Source of the DNA: Opitutaceae bacterium EW11
Lineage (GTDB): Bacteria > Verrucomicrobiota > Verrucomicrobiia > Opitutales > Opitutaceae
Assembly (NCBI GenBank): GCA_003054665.1
Contig: QAYY01000027.1
Location: 1-32,851, forward strand
DNA: 32,851 nt
Direction of reading: 5' to 3'
Shown: positions 8,517 to 32,786 of the stretch, piece after piece
Layout of the letters: each line of letters starts with the position of its first letter
Position numbering within the stretch: the first letter of the stretch is position 1
The notes under the pieces: model-generated
What the model was told of the DNA's origin: nothing
The model's database searches: none
Seen by the model: only the letters and a program-made list of their open reading frames with translations
Made by a program: the position numbers and the translations under genes

Positions 8517-8576
8517 GCCTGTCGGAACCGTCCCTTTGTCTTCGGGCCTCCGTTGCGGACTATATCGCACGCCACC

Positions 8577-8590
8577 GCCGCGATCGCGGC
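8577..8590. promoter_or_regulatory. Palindrome in the leader of the VirB operon
   Basis: GCCGCGATCGCGGC is a perfect 14-bp palindrome 18 bp ahead of the VirB2-like start codon, in the only gap (92 bp) between the AraC gene and the secretion operon. It could be an operator or a hairpin in the mRNA leader. Confidence 0.35.
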
Positions 8591-8608
8591 GCTGAAGCGA
8601 TAGTCAAA

Positions 8609-8944
8609 ATGAAGACACATAACGGGCGTTGGGTGAGCATCGCGATGATGATGCTCGGTGGAGCGCGGGAGACGAATGCGGCTGTGTTCGGATCGCCGTT
8701 TTTGGCCCAAGTGCCGGGAACGCTGCACAACGCGTTTGAATACGGGTTGGGCATTCTTTTCCTCGCGGGCTTTCTCTGGGGCGTCCTGAAGATTTGGGGA
8801 GGCGCCCACATGATGTCGAAAGGCGATGCCGATGGAAAGATGGGTATCGTGTCCGGCATCATCATCGCTGGCGCAGCGTCGATCATGGCCGCTCTCTTCG
8901 CGATCTTCGGCATGCAAGCCGGTGCATTGACGCCGCAGTTCTGA
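8609..8944 (+). CDS. virB2: VirB2-like (TrbC) conjugative pilin
   Basis: 111 residues with the VirB2/TrbC pilin plan: an N-terminal leader with a short hydrophobic stretch (VSIAMMMLGG), then two membrane helices, GLGILFLAGFLWGVLKIWGG (about 46-65) and IVSGIIIAGAASIMAALFAIFG, separated by a short polar loop with KGDADGK. The mature pilin would insert in the inner membrane before assembly. It is first in the transfer operon and 2 bp before the VirB3 gene. The leader cleavage site is not clear. Confidence 0.8.
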   Translation: MKTHNGRWVSIAMMMLGGARETNAAVFGSPFLAQVPGTLHNAFEYGLGILFLAGFLWGVLKIWGGAHMMSKGDADGKMGIVSGIIIAGAASIMAALFAIFGMQAGALTPQF

Positions 8945-8946
8945 CC

Positions 8947-9297
8947 ATGGCCGACCTTCGGATCACTGACACGAACAGCGCCAACGACAGTCGAGGGCGC
9001 GCGTTCGGACTCGAGGGCAATGATTTCATCTACGTCCTCGTCGCCCTGGTCGCCGCCATGGGTTTCCACCTCGTTTGTACGGCGGTCCTGCATTTCCACG
9101 TCTTCTCCGCGCTGGTACTCGCCATGCCGGTATTCGCAGTGCCCGCCGCTTGGGTCGTCCTTCTGCGGCACGGCAAACCCGCAGGCTATGCGGGCGACTG
9201 GTTCGAGAATCTCGTGAGCCGCGAGGGATGGTCGTTGGCGCATGGCGCACAACCTGAGCCATTCAGGGAGGGCCAAAATGAGCAGCCATCCACCTAA
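8947..9297 (+). CDS. virB3: VirB3-like inner-membrane protein
   Basis: 116 residues from the ATG at 8947, two bases after the pilin stop. The N-terminal 28 residues are polar. Two closely spaced hydrophobic segments follow (DFIYVLVALVAAMGFHLV and FSALVLAMPVFAVPAAWVVLL), then a cytoplasmic tail. Size, topology and the position between VirB2 and VirB4 match VirB3/TraL-type proteins, which support pilus assembly with VirB4. The 3' end overlaps the VirB4 gene by 20 bp. Confidence 0.78.
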   Translation: MADLRITDTNSANDSRGRAFGLEGNDFIYVLVALVAAMGFHLVCTAVLHFHVFSALVLAMPVFAVPAAWVVLLRHGKPAGYAGDWFENLVSREGWSLAHGAQPEPFREGQNEQPST

Positions 9298-11899
9298 CGG
9301 ATTCTTCGCCGAAGGGATGATCCTGTTCGGTGCGTTGCACAAGGGCGCTACCGCGGCGAAAGGGTTCATCCTGCAGCCCCCCGATTTGCGGGGTGCCAGC
9401 ATCGCTACGCTGAACGGGTATCAGGACAAGATTCGCAGTCTGCTCGCGAATCTCGGTGAACGCACGCGGGCGCAATTTCAATGGACCTGCAGTTCCGATT
9501 ATCGGCAGGAGCTCACGCGGTATTTTCGGGAAACGGAAAAGGTCGTACACCCGCAGATCAGAAAGGCGCGGATGGAGCGCTTCGAACGCTACTGGGGAAT
9601 GATGCAGCGGCGCGAGCTACGTCGGGAGAATCTGGTGCTCTTCCTCTCCACCGAAGTCGCGACCAGTGGCGTACCGCTAGGGACAACGGCCGCCATCGCT
9701 GCATTCTACGAGAAAGTCATCGGCCAGTTGAAGGCTCAATTCGACGAATTGGGCGGCACGCTGCGGACGATCTTCGGCGCGGACACGACGGTCACGCCGA
9801 TGGACGACCTCGACCACTTCACGTATTGCGCGAAGTTCCTCAATCCCTCGCTCGCGGAGCGGTTCGATCACGACTTCGCCGCCCAATTCAATCCCGAGCT
9901 GAGTCTCCAGGAGAACTGCTGGAACTCGGACGGCGTCGGCATCCAGAACGTCGGGTTCTACCTGGATAATCGGTACCACACGATCTTCACGATGAAACGG
10001 TGGCCCAGCCGGACTTATCCGGGAATCATTCACCGGCTCACCGGGCTTCCGTTCCTCGATTACCAGATAACGTGCAACGTTGAGCCGCTGCCGGCCAAGC
10101 GGGAGGTCGACCGGGAGGAAAAGGCGGTCGAGCGGCTCCGCAACGAATATCAGGGCAACGGCCGGCATTCGCTGCTGGTCGCCGTCGGCAAGAAAGAGCG
10201 AAAGATCGAATCGCTCTCCACCGGATTCATCCGGCCGTTCACCACTACGTTTATTATTCGCGTGTGGGATGAAACCGAGGTCGCGTTGTCGGCGAAGTGT
10301 GCGGCGATCAAAAACGCGATCAACAATCTCGGCGGGGCGCAGTACTATGAATGCGCGCTGCCCTCGACGGCGAAGAAACTCTTCTTCTCGTCCTGGCCGG
10401 GCTGGACCCACAGCGGCTATCAGCACCGTACGCTGTACGCCGAGGACAGCTATCTCGCCGACATGCTGCCGTTCTCGGCCACATTCACGGGCCACTTGGC
10501 GGAAGCCGAGGCGATCTACGACGGTGCGCAGAACAACCTGGTTGGCCTCCGAACGTTTCTCGGCATTCCGCCGTCGCCGCAGCACGCGGTGCTGCTTGGC
10601 GCTACCGGCGCAGGAAAGTCGGTCCACATGCGCGATTTTCTGGAGCAGACCGCGCCGTATTTCGACTACACCGTCGTGATCGAAGAGGGCCTGTCGTACG
10701 AGAGCTACACTCGTGCGATGGGTGAGCGGCCGATCATTCTTCACCCGGATGGCGATCTCACGATCAATTACTTTGATACCGGCGGCATGCCGCTCGCGCA
10801 GTTGCAGGTGGCAACGGCCGTGGCGCTGCTCTCGCGGATGATCGGCGAAGCGCCGGACGCCGAGACTCAGCAAGTCCGGCAGGCGATTCTCGCCCGCTAT
10901 ATTCATCAACTGTACGAAGACACATTCGAAGAGTGGTCGAAGCGAAACCGCGACAAACTACCGCGCATTCAGCGGCTAGCGTGCGCGGCGCATCGTTGGA
11001 AGCAGGAGCGGATGCCCGCGGGTTCGACGAAAGTGGAGGCGTATGCCGAGCTTCGTGACCTTCTTTCGGCGCAGGACGAGCAAGCGCTTGAGTTCGTTGC
11101 ACACATTACCGAAGAACAGATCACGGCGTTTCTGAAACATCCGCAAACCGAGCGGACGGTGATGCAGACAGCGCATGCGGAGTACAGCCCGGACGATTAC
11201 CCGGTGCACACGAGCCTGGTCGAGTTGATGCAGTTCGCCCGATTCGAAGAGCACCGGAAGGACGAGGTGGATCATCTGGCGACGCTGCTGTCAGCCTGGA
11301 CTGCCCACGGGCAGTACGGACGGCTATTCGATGGCCGCACCAATGTATCGCTCACCGGAAAGATCGCGCATTTCGAGTTGGGTTACATTCCGGAGCAGGC
11401 GAACGATCTGAAAACCGCTGCAGGCCTGCTGATCGCCGGCTTTACGCGCCAGCACATCATTTCGCTCCCGCGCCACCGCTGGAAGCGGATCCTGTACGAG
11501 GAGCTGGCGCGGTTCCTGGACGTCCCAGGCGGCGAGAAGATCGTCGCTGAGTCCTACGCGCAACTGCGCAAGTTCAACTGCTGGACCGCATCCATCGTGC
11601 AGCAGTACAGCAAATTCAAAGACACGCGGATTCGCCCGGCAGTGATCGGGAATTCGAAGCAGTTTTTCCTGATGCGCCAATTCGACCGCACTGACATCGA
11701 GGCAATTGCCGCTGACATCGGGCTGCCAGAGTCGATTGGCTCCGCGATCCAGAATTACCCCATGCCGGAGCAGCAGCCCGCCGGAAGGAAGTTTTCCAGT
11801 CTATGTTTCTACTCGCCGGTCATTGATCCGCCGCTGTGTGGGACCGTGCGCAACGTTCAGCCGAACAAAGAGGCAATCCATGAAGAAGCTGCGGTGTAG
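9278..11899 (+). CDS. virB4: VirB4-family secretion ATPase
   Basis: 873 residues from the ATG at 9278, preferred to an in-frame ATG at 9242 because GGGAGG stands 7 nt upstream. The N-terminal half matches the CagE/TrbE/VirB4 region. The C-terminal ATPase has Walker A GATGAGKS at 441-448, and ILYEELARFLDVPGGEK near residue 735 occupies the place of Walker B. KQFFLMRQFDRTDIEAIAADIGLPES near the end is typical of the family. VirB4 energises pilus biogenesis and substrate transfer at the inner membrane. The 3' end overlaps the next lipoprotein gene by 20 bp. Confidence 0.93.
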   Translation: MSSHPPNGFFAEGMILFGALHKGATAAKGFILQPPDLRGASIATLNGYQDKIRSLLANLGERTRAQFQWTCSSDYRQELTRYFRETEKVVHPQIRKARMERFERYWGMMQRRELRRENLVLFLSTEVATSGVPLGTTAAIAAFYEKVIGQLKAQFDELGGTLRTIFGADTTVTPMDDLDHFTYCAKFLNPSLAERFDHDFAAQFNPELSLQENCWNSDGVGIQNVGFYLDNRYHTIFTMKRWPSRTYPGIIHRLTGLPFLDYQITCNVEPLPAKREVDREEKAVERLRNEYQGNGRHSLLVAVGKKERKIESLSTGFIRPFTTTFIIRVWDETEVALSAKCAAIKNAINNLGGAQYYECALPSTAKKLFFSSWPGWTHSGYQHRTLYAEDSYLADMLPFSATFTGHLAEAEAIYDGAQNNLVGLRTFLGIPPSPQHAVLLGATGAGKSVHMRDFLEQTAPYFDYTVVIEEGLSYESYTRAMGERPIILHPDGDLTINYFDTGGMPLAQLQVATAVALLSRMIGEAPDAETQQVRQAILARYIHQLYEDTFEEWSKRNRDKLPRIQRLACAAHRWKQERMPAGSTKVEAYAELRDLLSAQDEQALEFVAHITEEQITAFLKHPQTERTVMQTAHAEYSPDDYPVHTSLVELMQFARFEEHRKDEVDHLATLLSAWTAHGQYGRLFDGRTNVSLTGKIAHFELGYIPEQANDLKTAAGLLIAGFTRQHIISLPRHRWKRILYEELARFLDVPGGEKIVAESYAQLRKFNCWTASIVQQYSKFKDTRIRPAVIGNSKQFFLMRQFDRTDIEAIAADIGLPESIGSAIQNYPMPEQQPAGRKFSSLCFYSPVIDPPLCGTVRNVQPNKEAIHEEAAV

Positions 11900-12305
11900 G
11901 GGTGTGGCCCCAATCCTCGTCGGTCTGTCGGTTTTGTTCTGTGCCGGATGCGCGGGCATGGGGCGCGGCATGTCGGAAATTGCGGGCACCGGAACAGGTG
12001 GCGCGGTCGGCTACGAGGTTTCGGACCACAAGATCGGCGGAGCTGCTGCCGGTGCCGCAGTTGGATTCCTCGCCACGAAAGTTGCGGAACGCGGCGTGCA
12101 GCACGCCGAAAACGACGCGGAAAAACGTGGCTATGACCGCGCAATGAATCAGGCGGTGAAGCAGCAGTACTGGATCATCCAGGAGCAACAGCGCGCCGCA
12201 AAAACCGAAACGCGTCCGACGATGATGCCGGTCGTCGTACCGGAATCCACGCAGGATGGTGTGATCCGGAAAGAATCAATCGCGTTTGTCCCCGTCGCAC
12301 CATGA
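11880..12305 (+). CDS. Glycine-zipper lipoprotein in the secretion operon
   Basis: 141 residues. A signal peptide ends in a lipobox-like LFCAGC (lipidated cysteine near residue 24). Glycine-rich segments follow (GTGTGGAVGYEVSD, IGGAAAGAAVGFLATKVAE), resembling glycine-zipper outer-membrane lipoproteins, then a Q/R-rich helix. It starts inside the VirB4 gene and overlaps the VirB5-like gene by 4 nt (ATGA). A role in the outer-membrane part of the channel is inferred. It is one of three lipoproteins in this operon, and which is the functional VirB7 cannot be told from sequence. Confidence 0.75.
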   Translation: MKKLRCRGVAPILVGLSVLFCAGCAGMGRGMSEIAGTGTGGAVGYEVSDHKIGGAAAGAAVGFLATKVAERGVQHAENDAEKRGYDRAMNQAVKQQYWIIQEQQRAAKTETRPTMMPVVVPESTQDGVIRKESIAFVPVAP

Positions 12306-13096
12306 AACCGATCCTTTGCGTCTTCGCTCTTCTCGTCGCCGCAGTTGCTCGCGGGCAAATTCCCGTCACAGATGCCGCGAGCATCGCGAACAACCGCATC
12401 ATCCAGGCGGAGAATCTCTCGAAGTGGGTCGACAGCATCAGTCACCTCCAGCAGCAGATCGATGCTCTCAATCGGCAGATCAACATCACCTCGGACATCC
12501 GGCGTTGGGGTGGTGACCCGAAGGCGGCCGGCGCCAATCTCATTCTGGAGGGACTCGGCGGGCCCGATCTCGTTCATGAGTACGGTCGAGCCCAGCGCGC
12601 CGTCGTCGGGGTCGTCGATAGCCTGTATTCGTTGAAACGCACCGCCAACGGCACATTCGACGCGATTGGGAGTGCCGACCTGGACGGGAACGAAATGAAA
12701 CGCGACCCGATGATCTATCGGCGGTATGCGGTCCTCGACGCGAAGCAGGATCTCTCGGCGCAGGTCACGGCAGAAACGGGTCAGCGTGAACAGCAACTGC
12801 AGAGTGAAATCGCTGCCACGCTCGAGGATTTGAAAGCGGCAGACACGGATGCCGAGGTGCAGAAGCAGTCGGCAAAGCTCAGTGCGCTGAACGGGCAACT
12901 CGCCCAGGTCGAAGCAGCACGTCGACGCGAAGTTGACGGCGTGATGCTGCAGAAAATCGCGAATGACAGCCGATCCGAGGAAGAACAACGCGCTGAGGCG
13001 GAACTAGAAGCGCGGAATGACTACTTAGCTAATCAGCGCATCTCCGCGTTCATGAAGACGGTGAAGGTGCGCCAAAACAATGATCCCACAGATTAA
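12302..13096 (+). CDS. virB5: VirB5/TrbJ-like minor pilus or periplasmic protein
   Basis: 264 residues with a clear N-terminal signal peptide (FALLVAAVARG, cleavage about residue 18). The mature part is almost wholly helical: an N-terminal heptad-like segment (NRIIQAENLSKWVDSISHLQ), a middle region, and a long charged coiled coil (LQSEIAATLEDLKAADTDAE to LNGQLAQVEAARRREVDG). This agrees with VirB5/TrbJ proteins, which sit at the pilus tip or in the periplasm. Position between VirB4 and VirB6 supports the call. It overlaps the next small lipoprotein gene by 17 bp. Confidence 0.7.
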   Translation: MKPILCVFALLVAAVARGQIPVTDAASIANNRIIQAENLSKWVDSISHLQQQIDALNRQINITSDIRRWGGDPKAAGANLILEGLGGPDLVHEYGRAQRAVVGVVDSLYSLKRTANGTFDAIGSADLDGNEMKRDPMIYRRYAVLDAKQDLSAQVTAETGQREQQLQSEIAATLEDLKAADTDAEVQKQSAKLSALNGQLAQVEAARRREVDGVMLQKIANDSRSEEEQRAEAELEARNDYLANQRISAFMKTVKVRQNNDPTD

Positions 13097-13355
13097 GCCC
13101 CACTCGGTTGCCGCGGTGTTCCTGGCCTGTTTGACCCTCGCCGGTTGCGGAAGATCGGAGCCCACCACGAAACAAAAGGAAACGACAGGTCTCACTCCCG
13201 AGCAAAAAGCAGCACGGGATCTGCAGAAGTCCAACGACGCAGTGACCGCAATTGACCAGAAGATCGGGCGAAAATTGGAGCCAATGGATATCGGCGTACC
13301 GAGCGACACGAAGCAGACCACGACAACGACGGTAGCGCCGCCAAAGAAGCAATAG
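13080..13355 (+). CDS. Small lipoprotein (entry-exclusion or VirB7-like)
   Basis: 91 residues. The signal peptide ends in LTLAGC, a clear lipobox (cysteine at residue 23). The mature part is short, polar and rich in K, T and Q, with a threonine run near the C-terminus. Small lipoproteins between VirB5 and VirB6 are often entry-exclusion proteins (Eex-like, as in R388-type systems) or VirB7. Nothing in the sequence decides between them. Confidence 0.72.
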   Translation: MIPQIKPHSVAAVFLACLTLAGCGRSEPTTKQKETTGLTPEQKAARDLQKSNDAVTAIDQKIGRKLEPMDIGVPSDTKQTTTTTVAPPKKQ

Positions 13356-13359
13356 GACT

Positions 13360-14304
13360 ATGGAAATTTACCTGCCCACTCTCGAACAGAAGATCGTCGA
13401 ACTCGTGACGGCCTTTCGGTTCATCGTGTTCGCGATCATGGTGGTGGGCCTGGTGGTCTACGCATCGCGTCCCGGCGGCCAAGGCGCCGACTTGTTCCGT
13501 GTACTGACGCGAGCAATCGTTTTGGTGGCCGCTATCGCGTACATGAATGTCTGGTTCCCGAAAGTGGAGCAGACATTCCTCCACATCGCAGAGTTCGTTG
13601 ACCCAGGTTACAACGAACATCCTGCCGCCGCAGCGGACGCGATCAGGCAATCGACTGCCGATAATCCCGAGGGGCAGACATGGTCTTGGCGGCATTTGAA
13701 CGAGTCCATCTACCAAGCCGTCTCAAGGGCTCTCGCAAACGTCTTCATCTACATTGGCACGCTTGTGACCGTGCCAATGCACATCCTGCAGTATGTGCTT
13801 CGGTGGCTCATTTACCTGATCATGCCGTTCATGTTGGCGCTGGTGATGGTGCCAGGGATGAGCGGGATCGCCGTACGATTCTTCCAGCAGATGCTTGCCG
13901 TGTTGGCATGGCCGATTGGCTTTGCCCTCACAAATCTGGTGGCGCTGTCGGTGTGGAACGATTTCCGCAGTGCTGTCGGTCCTAACCCGGCCACGGTCGG
14001 CGATGCGTTGTATTCGCCGCTTTTAACGATGATGGGCGGCATACTCGCCACCGTCATGATCCTCGTCGGCATGCTCGCGACCCCGGTCGTGATGCAGATG
14101 CTATTTGCGCAGGGGCACGCGTTCAGCGGGGCCTCTGCTAACGTCGCCCATTGGGTGCGTAGCGGTTCCAGCATGATCTACGGCGTCGGTGACCGCGTGT
14201 TCCCACGCGGTGCAACGACGCTCGCCCCGCAGGCGAGCGTGTCGGTTGCACCGCCGCGCCCACCGCCGCCTCCGTTGGGAATCGAAGCACGTCCCGGAAT
14301 CTAA
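13360..14304 (+). CDS. virB6: VirB6/TrbL-like polytopic membrane protein
   Basis: 314 residues with about six hydrophobic segments: near 18-36, 46-64, 126-142, 145-165 (LRWLIYLIMPFMLALVMVPG), 178-196 and 222-244 (ILATVMILVGMLATPVVMQML). A periplasmic loop lies between the second and third. The C-terminal tail is proline-rich (PPRPPPPP). This is the usual plan of VirB6/TrbL, the inner-membrane component through which DNA passes. AGGA precedes the ATG. The gene sits between VirB5 and VirB8, as in classic virB operons. Confidence 0.82.
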   Translation: MEIYLPTLEQKIVELVTAFRFIVFAIMVVGLVVYASRPGGQGADLFRVLTRAIVLVAAIAYMNVWFPKVEQTFLHIAEFVDPGYNEHPAAAADAIRQSTADNPEGQTWSWRHLNESIYQAVSRALANVFIYIGTLVTVPMHILQYVLRWLIYLIMPFMLALVMVPGMSGIAVRFFQQMLAVLAWPIGFALTNLVALSVWNDFRSAVGPNPATVGDALYSPLLTMMGGILATVMILVGMLATPVVMQMLFAQGHAFSGASANVAHWVRSGSSMIYGVGDRVFPRGATTLAPQASVSVAPPRPPPPPLGIEARPGI

Positions 14305-14316
14305 GGAGGACTCAAG

Positions 14317-15009
14317 ATGGTTTCGTCGGTCGCTGAAATACGCGAAAGGCCGGAGGCTTTGCGCGAAACAAGGGTCAAAAACGGGCATCCGCCATCGGCG
14401 CCGGCACGCGTGCGCGTATTCTCCCCGGCGAGACTGTTCGCCGATCACGCGTTCGCCGCCCGGGCGTGGTGCGTAATCGCGTGCGCTGCGGTCGCCCTGT
14501 GCATCATTCAACCGTACTTCATCGTCCGCGCGGCGAACTCGCGCGAACGCGTTGTCGTCCTCGATGGCGCCGGCACCTTCTCGATTTCGCCGGTCCTCGG
14601 TTTCGAGCAGGCGAAGGAACTGCACGAGGCGATGACGTTGTGGGCGACCCTGGCGCTGTTTCAGCGGAACCCGCAGGGATTCGATTATCCCGACGTACTC
14701 CAAAAACTCTTCCTCACCGATGCATACCAGAGGGCGCAGCATGATCGCGACGCCACCAAGAGCGAATTTGAGCTGAAGAACATCCATCAGAAACCGGAGG
14801 TGTTCAAAATGGACGTCCTCCGCACGAGAGAGGATCGCGTGCTCGTGAGGGTGGAAGGGCAGCTGATTCGAACCGGCGTCTTCGAAAACCAGGTATTCAC
14901 CGAGGCGCCGAAGTTCACGCTCAACCTCACTTTCGCCCGGAATCCGAACATGCTCGCGAACAAACGCTACCCCCTAGCGGTATGGACCTACGACTACAGC
15001 ATTCATTGA
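14317..15009 (+). CDS. virB8: VirB8-like assembly factor
   Basis: 230 residues. A cytoplasmic N-terminus of about 48 residues, one membrane helix (CVIACAAVALCIIQPYFIV), then a periplasmic domain. The order before VirB9 and VirB10 and the bitopic topology fit VirB8, which nucleates the inner-membrane complex. TAAGGAGG lies 7 nt before the ATG and is the strongest ribosome-binding site in the operon, which may boost this and the following genes. The 3' end overlaps VirB9 by 28 bp. Confidence 0.8.
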   Translation: MVSSVAEIRERPEALRETRVKNGHPPSAPARVRVFSPARLFADHAFAARAWCVIACAAVALCIIQPYFIVRAANSRERVVVLDGAGTFSISPVLGFEQAKELHEAMTLWATLALFQRNPQGFDYPDVLQKLFLTDAYQRAQHDRDATKSEFELKNIHQKPEVFKMDVLRTREDRVLVRVEGQLIRTGVFENQVFTEAPKFTLNLTFARNPNMLANKRYPLAVWTYDYSIH

Positions 15010-15854
15010 TCGTGGGCCTCGTCGCTTGCGGGTTGTGTGCGCGCGCCGACGTGCAATCGCTGCAGACCCAGGCAATCAAGCAATTCCCGTTGGATGAACG
15101 CACCGTTTACGAGGTGCCGATCAGCCGCGATGTGCCGACCACGTTGATGTTCCCGTCGGCGATCATGGGCCTGGAAGGAGCAAACGTGTCCGCAAGTCCA
15201 GATACTCCCGCGCCGGTGCTGCTGTCGTACACGCCTGGTCGGTATTTCTTCAGTGTCCGGGCGCTGGACCCGAATGCACACGCCGGCGTCAACGTCATCT
15301 GGAAGAACAAGACATACGTCATCCGCTTCACCGCTTCGGATCAGCCATATGGTTCCGTGACATTCTATGAGGACGAACTGACTGGTCGGAGCGCGAGTTT
15401 CCAGCGACGCGTCACGCCGGAGGTTCTGCTCGGACTGCTCGACCGAGCCAAGAGCTTCGACCTGCTGCAGAAGCAGTACCCTGAAGCCGTTCAGCAGATC
15501 GACCATGTGACGCCGGGCACCGTGAGCCCCTACCGCGACTTTCGGGTGATAGTGGAAGACGTGTTCCGCTTCGATCCGGAGGACACGTTGGTGTTTCGCC
15601 TGCGCTTCGAAAGCAGCGGCGACAAGGAAGTGATCTATCAGCCCCAGCGGCTGGCCGTGCGAGTCGGGCAGGACATCTACTACGCGTCGATTGTCGATGC
15701 GTCGGGCATCGTTCCGCCGAAGGCGACAACGGCCGCGTATTTCGCGATCACGGGCACGCCACGGGGCGGACGCGCGAACCTCAGCGTAAAGAACTCCTTC
15801 AGCGTCATCGTCGAGCGGGTCGAGCGGGACGCGAAATTGATCATCCCTCAATGA
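14982..15854 (+). CDS. virB9: VirB9-like outer-membrane core protein
   Basis: 290 residues with an N-terminal signal peptide (SLIVGLVACGLCARA). The N-terminal half is beta-rich (VYEVPISRDVPTTLMFPSAI, then GRYFFSVRALDP), which is the inner-layer fold of VirB9/TrbG/TraO proteins. The C-terminal domain (from about 190) is also beta-rich and contains DTLVFRLRFES and a YYASIVDASG segment. VirB9 binds VirB7 and VirB10 to form the core complex. The stop overlaps the VirB10 start by 4 nt. Confidence 0.82.
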   Translation: MDLRLQHSLIVGLVACGLCARADVQSLQTQAIKQFPLDERTVYEVPISRDVPTTLMFPSAIMGLEGANVSASPDTPAPVLLSYTPGRYFFSVRALDPNAHAGVNVIWKNKTYVIRFTASDQPYGSVTFYEDELTGRSASFQRRVTPEVLLGLLDRAKSFDLLQKQYPEAVQQIDHVTPGTVSPYRDFRVIVEDVFRFDPEDTLVFRLRFESSGDKEVIYQPQRLAVRVGQDIYYASIVDASGIVPPKATTAAYFAITGTPRGGRANLSVKNSFSVIVERVERDAKLIIPQ

Positions 15855-16900
15855 GCTTTCGCCTCCTGCCGTTTCTCAGATCCCCAACCGGGAACATCGT
15901 TGTCTTCGCGGCATTCGTCGTTTTCGGGGGTGTCACGATGCTGCGCAGCAATGCGCGGGAACGTGCGCGAACAGCGCAGATGACGAAGGTCGACACCGTG
16001 TCCGCCACTCCAGCAATCGAGACGATGACGCGTCCGACTCTTCCGTTTATGCCGGCGCTACTGGTCAAGAGCACGCGAGACCCGAAGCCGGCGATGTCAG
16101 CACCGGAAGAAGAACTCCCCGTTGAGCGCGGATTCCTCAGGCGGCAACCACCCAAGCCGCACGTACTGCCGATAAGCCTCGTCTCGACAGCGGCAGATCC
16201 AGCGCCGCAACTTTCGAAAACGTATGCGCCGTACGGCCGCCTCATTCCGTGCGAGACCGTCATCACGCTCGAGTCCTCGAAACTCGACACTCCGGTCATT
16301 GGATTGGTCACCGAAGATGTCTGGCACAATGGCGAGTTGATCATTCCCGCCGGAGCGGAGGTGCACGGTCGGGCTTCGCTGGATCGATCGCGCGAGCGCA
16401 TCGCAGCCTCCGGCAAATGGGTGGTGGTCTGGCGCGATAGCTCGCCCCTCAACGGGACCGAACTCGTGCTCAACGGCATTGCGCTGGACCGGGAGAAGGA
16501 TGACGCCAGCGGTGAGTTTGGACTCCGCGATGGCTCGGCCGGGTTGGTCGGCGACCTGATCAAGTCGGACGATTACCAGGAAGTGAAGATGTTCGCCTCG
16601 ACCTTCCTCGCTGGGGTGGCGAGCGGGCTCCAGCAGCTCCAGAATCAGGGCACCGCGTTCGGCGACATCGTGCAGGTGCCGAAGGTGTCGGGGCGCAATG
16701 CCGCCCTGCAAGGCACGGCGGACGTGCTGAACGCCTACGCGCACCAAATCCAGGAAGCGATCGCCCGCGATGGATTCTACGTCCGAGTGCCGGCGGGACA
16801 CCAATTCTACCTCTATGTGACCGAAACCATCGACCAGGCGAACGGCAGTCGCGGGAACAAGAAAAATGAAGAAGTTTGGAGGACGCAGAATGAAAAATAA
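15851..16900 (+). CDS. virB10: VirB10/TrbI-like core protein
   Basis: 349 residues. One N-terminal membrane helix (about 15-31, IVVFAAFVVFGGVTML), then a low-complexity proline-containing periplasmic stretch, then the VirB10/TrbI beta-barrel domain: LIPCETVITLESSKLDTPVI, a V-I-PAG-EVHG turn, and the C-terminal DGFYVRVPAGHQFYLYVT. VirB10 spans both membranes and senses ATP energy from VirD4/VirB4. It overlaps the following lipoprotein gene by 11 bp. Confidence 0.9.
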   Translation: MSFRLLPFLRSPTGNIVVFAAFVVFGGVTMLRSNARERARTAQMTKVDTVSATPAIETMTRPTLPFMPALLVKSTRDPKPAMSAPEEELPVERGFLRRQPPKPHVLPISLVSTAADPAPQLSKTYAPYGRLIPCETVITLESSKLDTPVIGLVTEDVWHNGELIIPAGAEVHGRASLDRSRERIAASGKWVVVWRDSSPLNGTELVLNGIALDREKDDASGEFGLRDGSAGLVGDLIKSDDYQEVKMFASTFLAGVASGLQQLQNQGTAFGDIVQVPKVSGRNAALQGTADVLNAYAHQIQEAIARDGFYVRVPAGHQFYLYVTETIDQANGSRGNKKNEEVWRTQNEK

Positions 16901-18179: not shown

Positions 18180-18211
18180 GGCGGCGGGAGCTTCGCTCCC
18201 GCCGCCTTTTT
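18180..18211 (+). terminator. Strong rho-independent terminator of the transfer operon
   Basis: A perfect 12-bp stem, GGCGGCGGGAGC / GCTCCCGCCGCC, with loop TTC, is followed by TTTTT. It lies 16 bp after the last gene of the operon and marks the boundary with the A+T-richer cassette. Confidence 0.92.
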
Positions 18212-18390: not shown

Positions 18391-18930
18391 ATGAGGTGCC
18401 TTACGCTCCTCGCAAAGAACGTAAGAATGACCGACGCGCGTTCGTCCAGCGAAGCCGTCGCTCTCATTGGCACTACGTTAATCGCCCTCGTATGTGTTGA
18501 AGCGACGGACGGCGCTCGCGACGTTGGAGCTCTCGAACGAAGGCTGCGCTCGATGATCGGAAATGCACGGCCTGCCGATCTTCCGGTGCCGCTGAGCTGG
18601 CCCGTAGAGAAAGTGCTCCTGGTGCCGTTCGCCCATCTCAGCGAATTTGCCAGCACCAATCGTCGGCACGTTACCCATATACTGACAGAGTTACAGGAGG
18701 CGCTCAGTAAATCGGGCGGGGCCGTTTTCATGGTTGGTACCGATGCGACGAATGCTTTGTTCGCAGATCTCGCATTGTTCGACTCCATTATAAGTTCTAA
18801 ATGCAGTCTTACCCCGTCCTCGTTGGTGAGCGACTTTCGGGGGCTACTAAACGCTTTTGGCTACGATACAGTAAGCAGGGCTCTCGAAAAGGCGCGACAA
18901 AGACCTCACGATGAAAATGAAATCACGTAA
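18391..18930 (+). CDS. Archaeal-type threonyl-tRNA synthetase editing-domain homologue (stand-alone)
   Basis: 179 residues. From memory of the archaeal ThrRS N-terminal editing domain (Pyrococcus), the same order of elements is seen: MRCLTLLAKNV at the start, TLIALVCVEATD (archaeal VLVAFISVEKVD), and VLLVPFAHLSEFAS (archaeal VFVYPFAHLSSELA), followed by the helix ILTELQEALSKSG. In archaea this DTD-like domain removes wrongly attached serine from tRNA-Thr. The later motif with the catalytic lysine (PFGYYK) is not recognisable; the sequence there reads VGTDATNALFADLAL. So the active site is altered, or the protein binds rather than hydrolyses. It overlaps the next gene by 20 bp. The ATG at 18427 is an alternative start, but the homology begins at 18391. 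Confidence 0.72.
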   Translation: MRCLTLLAKNVRMTDARSSSEAVALIGTTLIALVCVEATDGARDVGALERRLRSMIGNARPADLPVPLSWPVEKVLLVPFAHLSEFASTNRRHVTHILTELQEALSKSGGAVFMVGTDATNALFADLALFDSIISSKCSLTPSSLVSDFRGLLNAFGYDTVSRALEKARQRPHDENEIT

Positions 18931-19903
18931 CTCCCTCCTGCATATCGGACTGGTGTTGCTCATGGCAACTGCATGTGCGTTCGTGAGCTGTGATCGTCCC
19001 CCAAAAACCGTCGCTAAAGTCCGAAAGATACAAATCCTGCAACTGGGGACATATCCGGTAATCGATTCTGTTGTTACTGGGTTCAAAGATCGTTCTGCGG
19101 AGCTCTTCGGGGGAACGGTTCAGCTAACAATCTTGAACGGGAACTTCGACTCGATGACGTTGAGCACGCTGGCGCGGCAAATGAGTAGCTCCGACGCAGA
19201 TTTGCTCGTCTCCGTCACGACTCCTGCCACCGGAACCGTAGTGGGAGCAAATCGAGGTTCGAAACCGCTAGTATTCACGTTCGTATCTAACCCGCCGTCG
19301 GTCGGGTTTAATGGTCCCGGCACTCTCCCTAATACCACAGGGCTAAGTGACGTTGTAGATTATGAAGGAACATTAAGAATGATACGGAATATTCTACCGC
19401 AGGCTACAACCATTGGTTATCTGCTCACGAGGAGCGAAGAGAATGCCCAAGTTGTGTACAATGGATTCCAAGAGAAGGCGCCCGGCTTTGGCTTTCGTTT
19501 GGTAGTTGCTGGAATTGGTGACGAACGAGACGTCCGGCCCGCTGCGGAGATGCTTGCCCCAAAGGTGGACCTATTTCTACTTGGTGGCGACAACACTGTT
19601 GCGAAGGCCATCGATACGCTTTTGATGTCGGCAAAGGCTCAGACCAAGCCCGTTCCGGTTTTTGCATGCGATATAGAGTCGGTGAAAAACGGGGCGATCG
19701 CGGCGTATTCTGTGGACTACAAGCAAATGGGACGTCGAACGGCTGAAATTTGCGGCCTCATTCTCGGCGGAGCCGATCCAAACCGAATGGACGTGGAACA
19801 TTTTCCTGCCACGGCGCTGGTGTTGAATGACACTTCAGCCAAAATATTCCACGTGAATATTCCGCCTGATCTTCGGCGGGAAGCGAAGCTCATCGTGCCT
19901 TAA
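18911..19903 (+). CDS. ABC importer substrate-binding lipoprotein (TrpX/PF04392-like)
   Basis: 330 residues. A signal peptide ends in AFVSC, with the likely lipidated cysteine at 27. The body follows the type I periplasmic-binding fold of the TrpX-like family: KIQILQLGTYPVIDSVVTGF, DADLLVSVTTPAT, KPLVFTFVSNPP, TTGLSDVVDYEGTLRMIRNI, FLLGGDNTVAKAIDTLLMSA and GAIAAYSVDYKQMGRRTAEI. Known members serve amino-acid import (TrpXYZ of streptococci), but ligand choice varies. It overlaps the editing-domain gene and is 4 bp before the permease, so all are in one operon. Base composition is visibly lower in G+C than the transfer genes. Confidence 0.9.
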   Translation: MKMKSRNSLLHIGLVLLMATACAFVSCDRPPKTVAKVRKIQILQLGTYPVIDSVVTGFKDRSAELFGGTVQLTILNGNFDSMTLSTLARQMSSSDADLLVSVTTPATGTVVGANRGSKPLVFTFVSNPPSVGFNGPGTLPNTTGLSDVVDYEGTLRMIRNILPQATTIGYLLTRSEENAQVVYNGFQEKAPGFGFRLVVAGIGDERDVRPAAEMLAPKVDLFLLGGDNTVAKAIDTLLMSAKAQTKPVPVFACDIESVKNGAIAAYSVDYKQMGRRTAEICGLILGGADPNRMDVEHFPATALVLNDTSAKIFHVNIPPDLRREAKLIVP

Positions 19904-19907
19904 CGTC

Positions 19908-20903
19908 ATGAATCTCTTATCCTCGTTCGTTGATCTTCCCTCTTATATGCTGATCGCGGCGGGTTTTTACGTTGCGTACCGCATACTCAACTTTCCCGAT
20001 TTGACAGTTGACGCGTCCTGGGTGGCGGGAACGGTCGGTGCTGCATGCGGCGCCCTATATTTTAAGTCCTCAGGATTAGGGATAGTGTTTGCTGTTCTGT
20101 TGAGTGGCCTAGCAGGGGTCGCGACTGCCCTCATTTACCTAGCCAACCCGCGGCCGGCTTACAAGCTGCTGGCGGGCGTTTTGGTCGTGCTGATATACTT
20201 CTCGTTGGATTTTCACCTTCTCGGTGAGAAACTTAACGTTCATTTTTCTCAACAGCCGACGTCAATTAAGGCCTTGCTCGATTTTCAAGACGAACACGGC
20301 TTGCACTCATCGCAGCCGTTCACGATCCTTCTGGGCCTTGCCTTGGTATCATTGCAGTTTGCTGGGTGTTATTGGCTTTTCCACACGCGCTTTGGTTTAA
20401 AGTTAAGGACAATTGGGACGCGTCCGCACATTATTGCTACGCGTTCGCGTGAACTCGCTCCAACCCTCATAGTCGGACTTGTTTTATCGAATGTGATCGT
20501 TGGCGTTGGTGGCTGGTTGTTTGCTGTATGCAACGGGTGGTCGGATATTACAATTTTTGGCATAATCATATCCGCATTAACCTCGGTCATCATTGGGGAG
20601 ATGATTCTCGCTTGTGTCCCGAAGCTAAAGGATAGCCGGATTTCACTAAAGGTCGTGCTAGCAACCCCATTAATTGGCGCGTGCGTCTACCACCTGCTGC
20701 GGCAGCTCATTAATTGGGCCATGATCGGATTGTCGCGCGATTCGGCATCGCAGGCCGTATCTGTCAATCACCAGGACCAAACGGCGCTTCTTGCGGGATT
20801 GCTAATTGCCATTGTTATGGCCGCGAAGCTGATTAACAGCAGCTTTAGGATCTCAATGGTTCCGGACCAGTCCACCATCGAACCCGATGAAGACGCCATT
20901 TAA
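19908..20903 (+). CDS. ABC importer permease (TrpY/BPD_transp_2-like)
   Basis: 331 residues and strongly hydrophobic, with about eight membrane segments. The early motif YRILNFPDLTVDASWVAGT is the signature of the permease that partners TrpX-type binding proteins within the branched-chain/sugar permease superfamily. Later segments include LAGVLVVLIYFSLDFHLL, IVGLVLSNVIVGVGGWLFA and IIISALTSVIIGEMIL, the last probably contacting the ATPase. The single permease gene implies a homodimeric channel. The 3' end overlaps the ATPase fusion gene by 17 bp. Confidence 0.9.
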   Translation: MNLLSSFVDLPSYMLIAAGFYVAYRILNFPDLTVDASWVAGTVGAACGALYFKSSGLGIVFAVLLSGLAGVATALIYLANPRPAYKLLAGVLVVLIYFSLDFHLLGEKLNVHFSQQPTSIKALLDFQDEHGLHSSQPFTILLGLALVSLQFAGCYWLFHTRFGLKLRTIGTRPHIIATRSRELAPTLIVGLVLSNVIVGVGGWLFAVCNGWSDITIFGIIISALTSVIIGEMILACVPKLKDSRISLKVVLATPLIGACVYHLLRQLINWAMIGLSRDSASQAVSVNHQDQTALLAGLLIAIVMAAKLINSSFRISMVPDQSTIEPDEDAI

Positions 20904-22473
20904 GGTATCGTTTGCCGATTACTCATGCGCCTATCATGTGAAGGGGTTCACACCCGTTCACGCACTTCGGGGGTTGACGATACCAGAGATCCAGAATGGA
21001 GAAATTGTGTTTGTAGTTGGTCCCAATGGTTCCGGGAAAACGACTTTTCTTGATGCCGTTTGTGGACGAATTCGTCCCGACCAGGGATGGATAAGGTGGG
21101 ACCCAGCATCATCTGGTAGTGCGGTGAATCTGCGGCTTTGTTACGTGCCGCAGATGCCTTCGAGTGGGATTGTGGGCGATCTGTCGATTTTGGAAAATTT
21201 GCTCCTGCGAGACAGTTTGGGGTCTGGCCCGCGGTTATCACGCGCAGTTACACAAGAGCGACGGCGGTCCGCGGAGTCATTTCTCAAGGAGTTCGGATGC
21301 GAATGGTTAATCAGCAGGTTTGATTTGCCTCCGGCGTGTTTGTCAGGCGGCCAGCAACAGATTCTCAACTTGGTTTCGGTACTGTTCGCTGACCCACCGA
21401 TCGCAATTCTAGACGAACCCACCAGCAAGCTTGATGAGGCACATAGGGTAATCCTCATGAACCTACTGGTGCGAGCGAGCAGAGAAAAAGGCACGGCCGT
21501 TCTATGTGCAACGCATGACGTGGACATGGTCACGCGCATTGCTGATCGCGTATTCCCGCTGAGAGATGGCCTTCCACAGGAGCCTGAGCGGCGCCGAGAC
21601 GTCGGTGATGTTCGCTCGCCCGGGGCGGTCAGAATCTCACAATCAGCCATCGACCTGCCTGTTGCTGTTCAAGGAGTCGAACCGGATTGGTGGGCTCCAG
21701 GCCCGAATAGATTGTTTGGGGAAGCGTACCAGCGCGGTGATGATAGCCACGAAGGCTATTTGGCCAGGCACGAGCTCAGCAGAGACGCGCGAACCCGACG
21801 TGAGATTGCTGGAATTCAACGTATCTTGGGCATAGTTGGAACTTCGCACCTGAACATTGCCGATGTACCGTGTGGATGGGGAAGGCACTCGCTGGCGCTC
21901 GCGAAGGAAGGATTCAATGTGACCGGTGTGGATGTGAACCCAACGTATGTTCAGCAGGCAAGCGATGAAGCGAAGCGGCTGAGCTTGCCCGCAAAATTTG
22001 TTGTTGCTGACATGCGCAACACAGGACTTCCGGCCGATTCGCAAGATGGCATTGTGAACATGTGGACGTCGTTCGGTTTCTTCGATCACGAAGAGAACAT
22101 GAATGTTTTGCGTGAGTTCAGCCGTGTTTTACGATCTGGAGGGAAGATATTGATTCATTCAGATCTTAATCCGAGGCGCGTTCACTATGGAATATTTGAC
22201 GAGCCGTCCGAACGGCACTTGAAGGATCACAAGACGCTAGCAGTGGTCGAACACTACTGCGACAGTGAACACGCGATCTACGGCTCTTGGGCTGTCGACG
22301 GGTTTCCTCCATTTCGGTACAGAATTGCCGTCTACCGCGAAGATCAATGGCGCATGATGGCTGGAAAGGTCGGACTTAGGGTCGATGCCTTTTACGGCAG
22401 CTTTGACGGAGATCTAGACTTATCCGTGCGGTCACAGGAATTCATCGTGGTGATGTCGAAACCAGTGCCATGA
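20887..22473 (+). CDS. ABC ATPase fused to a class I SAM-dependent methyltransferase
   Basis: 528 residues in one uninterrupted frame. Residues 1-240 are a complete ABC ATPase: Walker A GPNGSGKT (45-52), Q-loop YVPQMP, signature LSGGQQ (152-157), Walker B ILDEPT (D176, E177) and H-loop CATHD. After a linker of about 60 residues, residues 290-528 form a Rossmann methyltransferase: motif I IADVPCGWGRHS with D326, motif II VTGVDVNPTYVQQA, a VVADMRN segment and the post-I strand DGIVNMWTSFGFFDHEEN, then LRSGGKILIHSDL. Both halves keep their core motifs, so both look active. The ATPase must drive the permease just upstream. The methyl acceptor is unknown; it may be the imported compound or a product derived from it. 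Confidence 0.92.
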   Translation: MKTPFKVSFADYSCAYHVKGFTPVHALRGLTIPEIQNGEIVFVVGPNGSGKTTFLDAVCGRIRPDQGWIRWDPASSGSAVNLRLCYVPQMPSSGIVGDLSILENLLLRDSLGSGPRLSRAVTQERRRSAESFLKEFGCEWLISRFDLPPACLSGGQQQILNLVSVLFADPPIAILDEPTSKLDEAHRVILMNLLVRASREKGTAVLCATHDVDMVTRIADRVFPLRDGLPQEPERRRDVGDVRSPGAVRISQSAIDLPVAVQGVEPDWWAPGPNRLFGEAYQRGDDSHEGYLARHELSRDARTRREIAGIQRILGIVGTSHLNIADVPCGWGRHSLALAKEGFNVTGVDVNPTYVQQASDEAKRLSLPAKFVVADMRNTGLPADSQDGIVNMWTSFGFFDHEENMNVLREFSRVLRSGGKILIHSDLNPRRVHYGIFDEPSERHLKDHKTLAVVEHYCDSEHAIYGSWAVDGFPPFRYRIAVYREDQWRMMAGKVGLRVDAFYGSFDGDLDLSVRSQEFIVVMSKPVP

Positions 22474-23244: not shown

Positions 23245-24765
23245 TCAGTCGGCGAATGCTCGCGCTCCTGGCGTTCCGCGATTGGCCGGTACGATGCTGA
23301 AAAAGTCCTCAGCCTCCGCCTTGGACTTCGAGTCGAGGTAGTGGCGGCGGATGATGCTCTCGGAATTGCCTGATTGCAGGGCTGCTTCTCCCACCGAGCG
23401 AAACTTCGCGACAAACATCGAAATGAATGTGTGCCGGGTGACATCGTGGCTGAGGTGAAATCTCGCAGTGAGCTTCGTCCGTGCTTCCTGAAAATGATCG
23501 GGCACGATTGCAAAACGATCCAAGGGATACGCGCGAAGCCATGCGGCGAGGTTCGGCTGAATCACAATCTTTCGCGGTTCGCGCACTTTCGAGACTTCGG
23601 CGGAGATTTCGATCACGCCCTCGTCCAATTTCACGGCCGACGGCGTGAGCCGGGACATTTCTCCGTGCGGCACACCTGGCCGAATCCCTGCGAAGAAAGC
23701 CAGTGCGAAATACACCACAAACCGCCCGTCCGCGAAAGTCTCCAGGGCCTGCATGAACTCACGCGTCTGGGCGGCCGAAAAGGTCTTCGCCGCGCCCCGG
23801 GGACGCCGAACGCGGCGCGCCGGAATGCGCGCGAGCGGATTGCTTTCGATCCAGCCGTGCTGGAGGCAATAGTTCAGGAAAGCGGACACCACGCCACGGC
23901 GGTTGTTGAATGTCTTGGTCGATGGGTGCCGCAGTTCTAGAAACGTCACCACGTGCGGCCCAGTCAGTTCAGCGACCGCCAATTCAGGAGACTGCTTAGC
24001 CAGCTCCTGGAGCCCGCGCTCCAGGTTCTCAAGGTAGGGCGTTGAGAGCAGCTTCTCGTCGTGCTCGTGTCGCCGGGCCGCGAGATACTCGTTCACCGCC
24101 GCACCGAGCTTCTTGCATTCGTTGGGCTCGCGAAATCGCTCTAGCGCGTGCTCGACGTAGAACAGGAGCGAGTGCGGTCGATCCTTGATGCGTTGGTATG
24201 CGGTTTCCGTTTCGCTCAACTGCGTTGGCGTGAGCCGGGTCACCGCGGTCCGGAGTTCGGCATCCGCCTGCGTCGCCTGGACGGTGAGCAGCTGCAACTC
24301 GGCCTCGGCATCTGCCCGTGTCGCGAAGTTTCTTCGGATCCTCGTGCCGCGAAGCCAGCCGGAAACCCGATATGCGACCGATCCACTCGGGTTCGTGTAC
24401 TTCAAAATCCGAAAGCCCTCTGACCGACGGAACCGTAGCCGCGCCGGCAACCGCTCGTGGGGCTGGTCCGATTTCACGGGCTCGCGTTCGGTCTCCTCCG
24501 CACTCGGACCTGGCGCGGCAGGCGGCGCATCGCTCCTCGGCGGCACCGGTGGTTTCCGCTCCTCGCCGCGCGCGGGAATCCGGAGCTTCGTGCGGATGTG
24601 TGCGGCGACCTCCGCCGGATCGTAGAAGATGAAATGCCCCACGCGGTAGTGCGGGATTTTGCGCAGCTTGGTCCAGGTGCGCAGGGTGCGGATGGAAGGC
24701 TCGTGTCCCAGGGCGAAGATGCCGCTCTGCTGCAACGCGACGACATCGGTGAGTGAATCGGCCAT
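23245..24765 (-). CDS. int: Tyrosine recombinase/integrase with N-terminal excisionase-like HTH
   Basis: 506 residues. Residues about 5-62 form a winged-HTH/excisionase-like domain (RTLRTWTKLRKIPHYRVGHFIFYDPAEVAAHI), followed by a proline-rich linker. An arm-binding-like segment (about 115-160, YRVSGWLRGTRIRRNFATRADAEAEL) and a SAM-like core-binding domain (230-310) come next. The catalytic domain shows R362 (AGIRPG), H440-x3-R444-H445 (HDVTRH) and nucleophile Y476 (RHYLD); the usual LGH box reads SGN. It would integrate and excise the element at the tRNA-Ser 3' end, though the recognisable att fragment lies about 8 kb away. Fusion of an excisionase-like HTH to the integrase is unusual. Confidence 0.93.
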   Translation of the reverse strand: MADSLTDVVALQQSGIFALGHEPSIRTLRTWTKLRKIPHYRVGHFIFYDPAEVAAHIRTKLRIPARGEERKPPVPPRSDAPPAAPGPSAEETEREPVKSDQPHERLPARLRFRRSEGFRILKYTNPSGSVAYRVSGWLRGTRIRRNFATRADAEAELQLLTVQATQADAELRTAVTRLTPTQLSETETAYQRIKDRPHSLLFYVEHALERFREPNECKKLGAAVNEYLAARRHEHDEKLLSTPYLENLERGLQELAKQSPELAVAELTGPHVVTFLELRHPSTKTFNNRRGVVSAFLNYCLQHGWIESNPLARIPARRVRRPRGAAKTFSAAQTREFMQALETFADGRFVVYFALAFFAGIRPGVPHGEMSRLTPSAVKLDEGVIEISAEVSKVREPRKIVIQPNLAAWLRAYPLDRFAIVPDHFQEARTKLTARFHLSHDVTRHTFISMFVAKFRSVGEAALQSGNSESIIRRHYLDSKSKAEAEDFFSIVPANRGTPGARAFAD

Positions 24766-26789: not shown

Positions 26790-27082
26790 AGCCGTTCCGG
26801 TACATCGCGGTCGAGTGGCGCCATGAGCATCCTAACGAACCCATTCTGCTCCTCGCCGAAGTGGATGCCGCAGGCTGGGAACAACGAAAGGTTGAGGTCT
26901 TTCGCAACGGTGCGCGGGGATATGCGAATTCGAACGCTCACTCACTCAATACCCGGCTGGGTGAAGCGCCAGTTCCGACCGTGGCGGAAATTGCAGAGAA
27001 CCCCGAGTTTGTACCCCGTATCATTTCACGCGAGGAATTCGAACGCGCTTGGGAGGAGGCCAGGTCGGAAAATGCCTTTTGA
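26786..27082 (+). CDS. DUF6881-like protein
   Basis: 98 residues. The pattern YIAVEWRHEHPNEPILLLAE, then WEQRKVEVFRNGARGYAN, then TRLGEAPVPTVAEIAENPEF and a C-terminal ISREEFERAWEEA matches what I recall of DUF6881, a small family frequent in immunity gene clusters. Overlaps both neighbours by a few bases. Confidence 0.72.
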   Translation: MKPFRYIAVEWRHEHPNEPILLLAEVDAAGWEQRKVEVFRNGARGYANSNAHSLNTRLGEAPVPTVAEIAENPEFVPRIISREEFERAWEEARSENAF

Positions 27083-27386
27083 GCTGCCAACCGAATATTG
27101 GGATTTCTTGGAAAGCGATGCCGCAGTATCGGAAGGTGGCTGTGCGGGCTTTCCTGGCTACTTCGTTCTCTGGCACCCGGACGAGGTCGAAGAACAGAAT
27201 CGGATCTTGAACGTAGCTGAATTGGCACCGGGTTTCCTCGGTTTCGGCGGCGACGGCGGCGGCGAAATGCTTGCCTTCAATGCCGCGGGCGCGATCTACG
27301 CACTACCGCTGGTTGGCATGGCGCCACGCCATGCTCGCAAGGTGGCGAACTCGTGGTCGGAATTTCAGCAACGGATTCAAAGATGA
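27072..27386 (+). CDS. Short SMI1/KNR4 (SUKH) family protein
   Basis: 104 residues from the ATG at 27072, overlapping the DUF6881-like gene by 11 bp. It begins LPTEYWDFLESDAAVSEGG, continues FPGYFVLWHPDEVEEQNRIL and ends with GFLGFGGDGGGEMLAFNAAGAIYALPLVGM. The strand pair around G-GDGGGE--AF is characteristic of short SUKH proteins. Likely immunity function. Its stop overlaps the next start. Confidence 0.82.
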   Translation: MPFELPTEYWDFLESDAAVSEGGCAGFPGYFVLWHPDEVEEQNRILNVAELAPGFLGFGGDGGGEMLAFNAAGAIYALPLVGMAPRHARKVANSWSEFQQRIQR

Positions 27387-28098: not shown

Positions 28099-28821
28099 AT
28101 GGCTCCCGTCGACACATCGGGATTGAAGCTTTTGATTTCGGACAAGCCGGACGAAGAGCGTGACGCCCTGGCGGCTGCTTTCGAGGCCTGTGGCGGCGCG
28201 GTCCATCGGCTCGGTCGGTTCTGGGATCCGCCATCCTTCGACCCTGCCACCGTCCGGGTGTATGGGGCCGACTCATTCTGCCTCGTGCTTCAGCAGAAGC
28301 TTGGATTTTCGCTGTGTTCGCCCGATGACGAGCTGCTGCTGCGGGTTCCGGGGGCATTGCTCAAGCGCCGGCTCACCAGGCAGACGCTGGCGCAGGCTCA
28401 AAGCGGACCGCTGCCCATGTTCATCAAGCCAGTTGTCCCTAAACAATTTCGGGGGGCCGTGTACAGCACCGCGGACGAACTTGCCGAGGAATGCCGCGGC
28501 TTGGCTCCGGACACGGCCGTAATCGTATCCGAAATCGTGACGCTCACGGCCGAGGTGCGCTGCTTTGTGTTGAACAACTCAGTGCTCGACGCCGCGGTAT
28601 ACGAGGGGATGGCTGATCGGGCGGAAGCGATCGGGTTCGCCACCGAGGTGACACAGGCGCTCGCTCTGCCTCGTGCCGTCGTACTCGACATCGGCAACGT
28701 GCCCGGGAAGGGCTGGGCCGTAGTTGAATTCAATGCGGCATGGGGTGCTGGCCTGAACGGCTGCAACGCTGAAAGAGTACTGCCGGCCGTCCTGGCCGCA
28801 TCGGCGCCTCAGTCGTCCTGA
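28099..28821 (+). CDS. R2K-type ATP-grasp protein (DUF4343-like)
   Basis: 240 residues. The C-terminal ATP-grasp half carries the motifs of the R2K clade: PLPMFIKPVVPKQF (nucleotide lysine), VIVSEIVTLTAEVRCFVLNN (the E---RCF block) and GWAVVEFNAAWGAGLNG (metal-binding E-x-N). The N-terminus is a pre-ATP-grasp domain. R2K enzymes are predicted ligases that modify peptides or nucleic acids and occur in phage, immunity and conflict loci. Substrate unknown. It converges on the next gene. Confidence 0.82.
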   Translation: MAPVDTSGLKLLISDKPDEERDALAAAFEACGGAVHRLGRFWDPPSFDPATVRVYGADSFCLVLQQKLGFSLCSPDDELLLRVPGALLKRRLTRQTLAQAQSGPLPMFIKPVVPKQFRGAVYSTADELAEECRGLAPDTAVIVSEIVTLTAEVRCFVLNNSVLDAAVYEGMADRAEAIGFATEVTQALALPRAVVLDIGNVPGKGWAVVEFNAAWGAGLNGCNAERVLPAVLAASAPQSS

Positions 28822-32744: not shown

Positions 32745-32761
32745 CATTCGGCGGAAAGTCC

Positions 32762-32786
32762 GGTTCGAATCCCACCCTCTCCGCCA
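32762..32786 (+). other. att site: 3' fragment of a tRNA-Ser gene (element end)
   Basis: The 25 bases are GG, then T-loop TTCGAAT (32764-32770), then T-stem 3' half CCCAC, then acceptor strand CCTCTCCG and CCA. This matches the 3' end of tRNA-Ser genes (compare E. coli tRNA-Ser GGTTCGAATCC...CACCGCCA). The 5' partner strands are absent: the bases before the loop are TCCGG, not GTGGG, and no GGAGAGG acceptor strand is upstream. So this is the att duplicate left by integration, with the crossover within or beside the T-loop. The intact tRNA gene should lie at the other end, left of the window and on this strand. Confidence 0.85.

Follow-up and report, generated by a model that had tools for sequence, protein, structure and literature searches.

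Two ATPase domains power each ABC transporter, and extra domains on the ATPases of importers mostly sense or regulate. PTS group translocation and vectorial acylation alter a solute chemically while it enters or soon afterwards; the transporter class and the chemistry of these processes differ from those of the importer described here, and the likeness would lie in a solute being modified around its entry. Among the passages that we met in print, the nearest described case is Wzt, the ATPase of an O-antigen ABC exporter, which carries a C-terminal glycan-binding module (PMC11231755). As far as the passages on Wzt and WbdD go, that system also combines an ABC ATPase bearing an extra C-terminal domain with a methyltransferase that works together with the transporter. 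Unlike the present case, however, the transporter is an exporter, the added domain binds glycan and the methylating terminator WbdD is a separate chain.

The closest relatives of the transporter described here are the TrpXYZ and CD0873-type importers, which have the same kinds of substrate-binding protein (SBP), permease and ATPase, and whose SBPs bind Trp, Tyr or Phe. These importers carry no methyltransferase on the ATPase, whereas the present one does, and the present SBP lies far below the cut-off of the NCBIfam TrpX equivalog (168.1 vs 390 bits). The methyltransferase domain has its fold in common with CypM, NmbA, CcbJ, CgnL and the glycine/sarcosine N-methyltransferases, which are not known to have a substrate in common with it and are free enzymes in contrast to the transporter-fused domain. 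Our full-text search of open-licence papers yielded no description of an ATPase-methyltransferase fusion or of import-coupled methylation. The core parts all belong to known families, and the arrangement itself was not found in print in that literature.

The window that we analysed, a stretch of 32,851 nucleotides, is an entire contig of the genome of Opitutaceae bacterium EW11. It contains a run of genes encoding, in order, a tRNA-editing-like protein, a TrpX-type lipoprotein, a permease and, last, the fusion protein. The features of this cassette are as follows.

18180..18206, + strand: terminator-like stem-loop between the conjugation genes and the cassette (12-pair stem, then a T-run)
18391..18930, + strand: ThrRS-editing-like protein, first gene of the run (PF08915, E 1.5e-4)
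18911..19903, + strand: TrpX-type SBP with a lipobox-like FVSC (PF04392, 144 bits)
19908..20903, + strand: importer permease, BPD_transp_2 / TrpY-type (PF02653, 47.2 bits)
20887..21570, + strand: ABC ATPase domain of the fusion, aa 1-228 (ABC_tran; motifs kept in the Chlorobaculum homologue)
21571..21684, + strand: linker of the fusion, about aa 229-266 (8/38 positions identical to the Chlorobaculum homologue)
21685..22473, + strand: SAM methyltransferase domain of the fusion, about aa 267-528, with the stop codon (Methyltransf_25, AlphaFold2 model; 122/260 positions identical to the Chlorobaculum homologue)

The editing-like and SBP genes overlap by 20 bases, four bases separate the SBP and permease genes, and the permease and fusion genes overlap by 17 bases; all four appear to be transcribed as a unit. 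Terminator-like sites in the region numbered 6, compared with a mean of 8.2 in shuffles. Because this count is not above that of shuffled sequence, the evidence for a terminator at 18180..18206 is weak.

A sequence-only reading of the window had claimed that the frame at 20887-22473 encodes an importer ATPase and a SAM methyltransferase in a single chain with all motifs of both enzymes intact. This claim held. The frame begins with ATG and runs for 528 codons on the + strand without an internal stop, and its product is one chain consisting of an intact ABC ATPase, a linker of about 38 aa and a class I SAM methyltransferase that is likewise intact. A Pfam search identified ABC_tran at aa 34-180 (81.1 bits vs a cut-off of 25) followed by Methyltransf_25 at aa 324-419 (65.8 bits vs a cut-off of 27), each above its Pfam cut-off. 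Inspection of the translation revealed the full set of residues expected of an ABC importer ATPase: Walker A (GPNGSGKTT, 45-53), the Q-loop (Q89), the signature (LSGGQQQ, 152-158), Walker B (ILDEP, with E177 as the catalytic Glu) and the H-loop (H210). The C-terminal part has the features of a class I SAM methyltransferase, namely motif I (D326-VPCGWGRHS, with G330/G332), an acidic residue after strand 2 (D349) and a Rossmann-like fold. Since no ATG, GTG or TTG was found in frame at aa 229-268, the methyltransferase has no separate start in the linker.

The importer context was also confirmed, as the genes adjoining the fusion encode a substrate-binding lipoprotein and a BPD_transp_2 permease whose PF04392 and PF02653 matches exceed their own Pfam cut-offs. 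These two families rule out an exporter.

Genome contigs were scanned with the window methyltransferase and one plasmid relative as queries and with two 8-residue patterns, giving at least 80 loci; with two such patterns, further fusions may be missed. One of the loci listed, in a Chlorobaculum sp. MAG (L029), has a second copy of the fusion, which brings the fused copies known from this analysis to two. The MAG is distant from the host of the window and probably belongs to another phylum. Its fusion gene (9194-10789) encodes a 531-aa protein in which the two domains recur, joined by a linker that matches in length, and is preceded by the same SBP (49% identity) and permease (42%) as judged by BLAST. 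The two fusion proteins are 44% identical overall, with 99/228 positions shared in the ATPase (43%), 122/260 in the methyltransferase (47%) and 8/38 in the linker (21%), and the key motif residues of both domains are conserved. The sequence-only reading had named an assembly error joining two genes as what would undo it. That the fusion is such an assembly or sequencing artefact can be dismissed as very improbable, because an independent assembly contains the same fusion, SBP and permease. In the Chlorobaculum linker there is an ATG in frame (codon 233, at the end of the ATPase, with GAGG upstream) as well as a TTG (codon 260), and an additional, separately started methyltransferase product is possible there.

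Phylogenetic trees united the window and Chlorobaculum proteins in one clade for the methyltransferase (support 100/100), the permease (100/100; the Chlorobaculum permease was flagged as a long branch) and the ATPase (99/99; the Accumulibacter ATPase described below was flagged as a long branch). As the fused pair is united in all three trees, one fusion event followed by spread is likely. The Chlorobaculum cassette has a GC content of 0.36-0.38 within flanks of 0.52-0.68 and also looks acquired.

An unfused counterpart was identified in Candidatus Accumulibacter conexus (L033), in which the SBP, permease, ATPase and methyltransferase are encoded by four consecutive separate genes. The remaining 78 of the loci listed had no SBP or permease of the window kind by BLAST at 1e-4 in the DNA compared. 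The Accumulibacter importer groups with that of another locus (L017), apart from the fused pair, in the trees of the permease (98/98) and of the ATPase (97/96), and its methyltransferase falls in the subclade neighbouring that of the fused pair. Because this importer sits on a different branch from the fused pair, the coupling of methyltransferase and importer seems to have arisen more than once or to be old and mostly lost, and chance is an unlikely explanation. Directly upstream of the four genes (3793-5202), the Accumulibacter locus encodes a protein of 469 aa that weakly matches the EgtD/EasF type at aa 211-335 (Methyltransf_33, 34.9 bits vs a cut-off of 23; EasF model, 27.2 vs 205.55). 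Its first ~200 residues had no Pfam match, and a PDB search with this upstream methyltransferase returned nothing at 0.01.

Eight control TrpXYZ-type importers from the phylum of the window's host (L132-L139) all had an ordinary ATPase frame of 252-291 aa, and neither a methyltransferase nor an editing-like match was found at any of these 8 loci by BLAST at 1e-3, where some of the stretches end at contig ends. Two other gene arrangements were observed. On a Shinella plasmid (L024, 3954-7545), an importer operon that lies outside this importer family and is annotated for iron closes with a methyltransferase gene of its own, which follows the ATPase gene at a distance of three bases. In a Phycisphaerales MAG (L076, 8879-10618), an ABC ATPase-like gene directly precedes a separate relative of the methyltransferase; this locus had no permease or SBP match of the window kind.

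The methyltransferase is sporadic among relatives of its host. With the host's own genome excluded, orthologues were found in 0 of 56 relatives at 1e-12 and in 0 of 361 genomes of the order at 1e-30. Matches in the phylum were confined to 4 of 386 genomes at 1e-15 (58-73 bits; own genome likewise excluded), in frames of 248-313 aa that are therefore not fusions. In the phylum of the Chlorobaculum MAG, 88 of 198 genomes including that MAG matched at 1e-30, the fusion scoring 357 bits and the next best match 143. For the Accumulibacter methyltransferase, a search at 1e-30 of 198 further genomes from that MAG's family gave no match. Scans of viral contigs gave no confirmed relative, phages did not match the methyltransferase protein or the cassette DNA, and plasmids did not match the cassette DNA or the editing-like protein. 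When plasmids were searched with the entire fusion protein of the window, at least 80% coverage was reached in 2 records among the best 5000. One is a 272-aa gene beyond which the match extends; the other, an ATPase of 556 aa preceded by two permeases, has the look of a tandem ATPase. With the Chlorobaculum fusion as query, 0 of 13 matching records reached 80% coverage.

The flanks of the cassette contain a TrwC relaxase, a TrwB-like coupling protein and TrbI, and an integrase-like gene whose recombinase matches fall below the cut-off; the conjugation genes and the integrase-like gene lie at 1125-16897 and 23248-24765. Judging by these genes, the contig most likely belongs to a conjugative element, with the importer cassette as its probable cargo. 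GC content is about 0.51-0.55 over 18.4-22.5 kb (0.549 in the editing-like gene) vs mostly 0.58-0.66 elsewhere in the window, and GC3 is 0.54-0.59 in the four cassette genes vs 0.67-0.80 in the remaining genes for which it was determined, a composition expected of acquired cargo. Close to the right end of the contig, at 32757-32786, there is a tRNA 3′-end-like stretch ending in CCGCCA that has its sole exact copy in the genome assembly here; it is a possible attachment site of the element, and ARAGORN detected no tRNA genes in the window. The window also encodes an R2K-clade ATP-grasp protein (28099-28818) near an SMI1/KNR4-family protein (26823-27383) and, amid the conjugation genes, an 885-aa protein (9242-11896) without a Pfam match at 1e-5.

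The SBP matched solved structures 3lkv, 6hni and 3lft in a PDB sequence search. According to the passages available of one account, the bound ligands are Phe in 3LKV, Tyr in 6HNI and Trp in 3LFT, and two specificity positions in 6HNI (CD0873) and its relatives are Glu-263/Ala/Ala and Tyr-279/Tyr/Gln (PMC6816091). In all three alignments (constant offsets of 21, 19 and 48) these positions correspond to Asp254 and Tyr270 of the window SBP. Thus the protein has the acidic residue (Asp, not Glu) and the Tyr of the CD0873 type, and Tyr270 replaces the Trp-specificity Gln (Gln-284 of SP1069), which makes Trp a less likely ligand than a Tyr-like or another polar aromatic one. The same pair is present in the Chlorobaculum, Accumulibacter and L017 proteins, and no methyltransferase match was found near the L017 importer; the pair is therefore a hint and not diagnostic. 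The part of a report on S. suis TrpX that we saw names T108, D152, N233, T129 and A127 as amino-acid-binding residues (PMC9382623). By our own mapping, the first three are kept as T104, D147 and N228 (3/5 named residues), while T129 corresponds to S126 and A127 to F124; the Accumulibacter protein has Ser at the N228 position. From these comparisons of residues, the ligand is inferred to be an aromatic or polar L-amino-acid-like solute, with a Tyr-like solute as the leading guess.

Nine aligned members of the methyltransferase subfamily share invariant WW...FG..Y..GD.S...G and H.D motifs. Members lie in a polyketide-type (PKS-type) cluster of Paenibacillus polymyxa and between large PKS-like frames, judged by eye, in a Chloroflexi MAG. 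Actinomycetes also have members, and so do small archaeal and CPR genomes, where no cluster is evident around them. An AlphaFold2 model of aa 241-528 built from an alignment of 20 sequences had a pLDDT of 90.9. Its nearest folds were CypM (VIA Z 24.6), NmbA (24.3; 22% identity), CgnL (23.9) and CcbJ (23.3), followed by the glycine or glycine/sarcosine N-methyltransferases GNMT (1kia, 21.9) and GSMT (5h02, 21.2), with rmsd values of 2.5-3.6 over 211-246 residues and about 15-22% identity from CypM to GSMT. The C-methyltransferases SeMT, SgMT and PsmD were within about 1.6 Z of the top, the O-methyltransferase UbiG was also near, and two uncharacterised methyltransferases tied with the top. The relevant passages of one paper state that NmbA N-methylates the cysteine amine of bacillithiol, not glycine (PMC12719100). 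The glycine/sarcosine N-methyltransferase equivalog NF051855 was not reached (38.1 vs 350 bits). Because the nearest folds are small-molecule methyltransferases, many of which act on amines, our best guess from the model is an amine acceptor.

The first gene of the run encodes a 179-aa protein whose PF08915 match covers residues 20-112, including PFAHLS, and fails the gathering score (22.3 vs 30.2 bits). Its single-sequence model had a pLDDT of 37.9, and a PDB sequence search gave chance-level matches only. Editing domains of this family are described, in the passages available, as fused to SepRS in some bacteria and as free-standing beside SepCysS genes in some archaea (PMC8762117). BLAST at 1e-4 detected no counterpart of the protein in the DNA of 80 related loci. 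There was likewise none in the Chlorobaculum and Accumulibacter loci or their genomes, the genome search lacking a positive control, and on this basis the protein is probably not part of the core importer-methyltransferase system. A PF08915 search of 387 genomes of the phylum gave no match and was uninformative, as it missed the window's own copy too.

The best explanation of the cassette is a horizontally moved ABC importer related to the TrpXYZ aromatic-amino-acid importers, whose fusion protein may chemically tag what the importer brings in. According to our model, the lipoprotein SBP would capture an aromatic or polar L-amino-acid-like solute, and the permease would hand it to the cytoplasm with power supplied by the ATPase domains. 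The methyltransferase domain on each ATPase would then methylate the arriving solute, most likely on nitrogen, so that it is trapped or converted. The simplest reading is that the imported solute itself becomes methylated. It agrees with the methyltransferase gene that lies beside the Accumulibacter importer, with an SBP of the amino-acid type and with a fold near those of small-molecule N-methyltransferases. We put at about even the chance that the importer takes up an amino-acid-like solute, aromatic or polar, and that the methyltransferase tethered to it methylates this solute on arrival, probably on nitrogen. Tethering may serve channelling, and a more demanding version, in which each ATPase passes the solute straight to its own methyltransferase and transport and modification form one group-translocation-like process, is tentative and somewhat doubtful. 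The editing-like protein may, speculatively, clear tRNA wrongly charged with the imported amino acid or its methylated form.

Other functions of the fusion were weighed against this model. The methyltransferase could be a small-molecule pathway enzyme tethered for dosage or localisation only, with an acceptor related but not identical to the transported solute, such as a later intermediate. Its subfamily relatives in biosynthetic clusters and the two methyltransferase genes accompanying the Accumulibacter importer are consistent with such an enzyme. However, the editing-like protein is the only gene product of the window cassette besides the importer and methyltransferase, no other biosynthetic gene being recognised there, and none was recognised beside the Chlorobaculum cassette, where frames were mostly judged by eye. 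We consider this explanation unlikely, though it deserves attention. A regulatory enzyme, whether it methylates a protein (the transporter, the SBP or a different one) or gates import by sensing the SAM level, would agree with the usual role of C-terminal domains on importer ATPases. Yet the domain retains motif I and the positions that do not vary across the nine aligned members of its subfamily, and its relatives are free enzymes of the small-molecule type; a regulatory role is thus improbable.

Slightly less probable again is that the cassette is detoxification or resistance cargo, by which a toxic amino-acid analogue from competitors would be imported and methylated into an inactive form, with the editing-like protein removing tRNA that had been mischarged. 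Its position on a probable conjugative element, its sporadic distribution and the editing-like gene would all fit. Conversely, importing a toxin would be an unusual defence, the PF08915 homology is under the cut-off and the Chlorobaculum locus has no BLAST match to the editing-like gene.

If methylation of the imported solute by the tethered domain is true, a conserved, mobile importer whose motor carries a catalytic domain would provide a compact test of ABC import tied to chemical modification, and the cassette would hint at an unrecognised bacterial route to acquire and modify amino-acid-like solutes.
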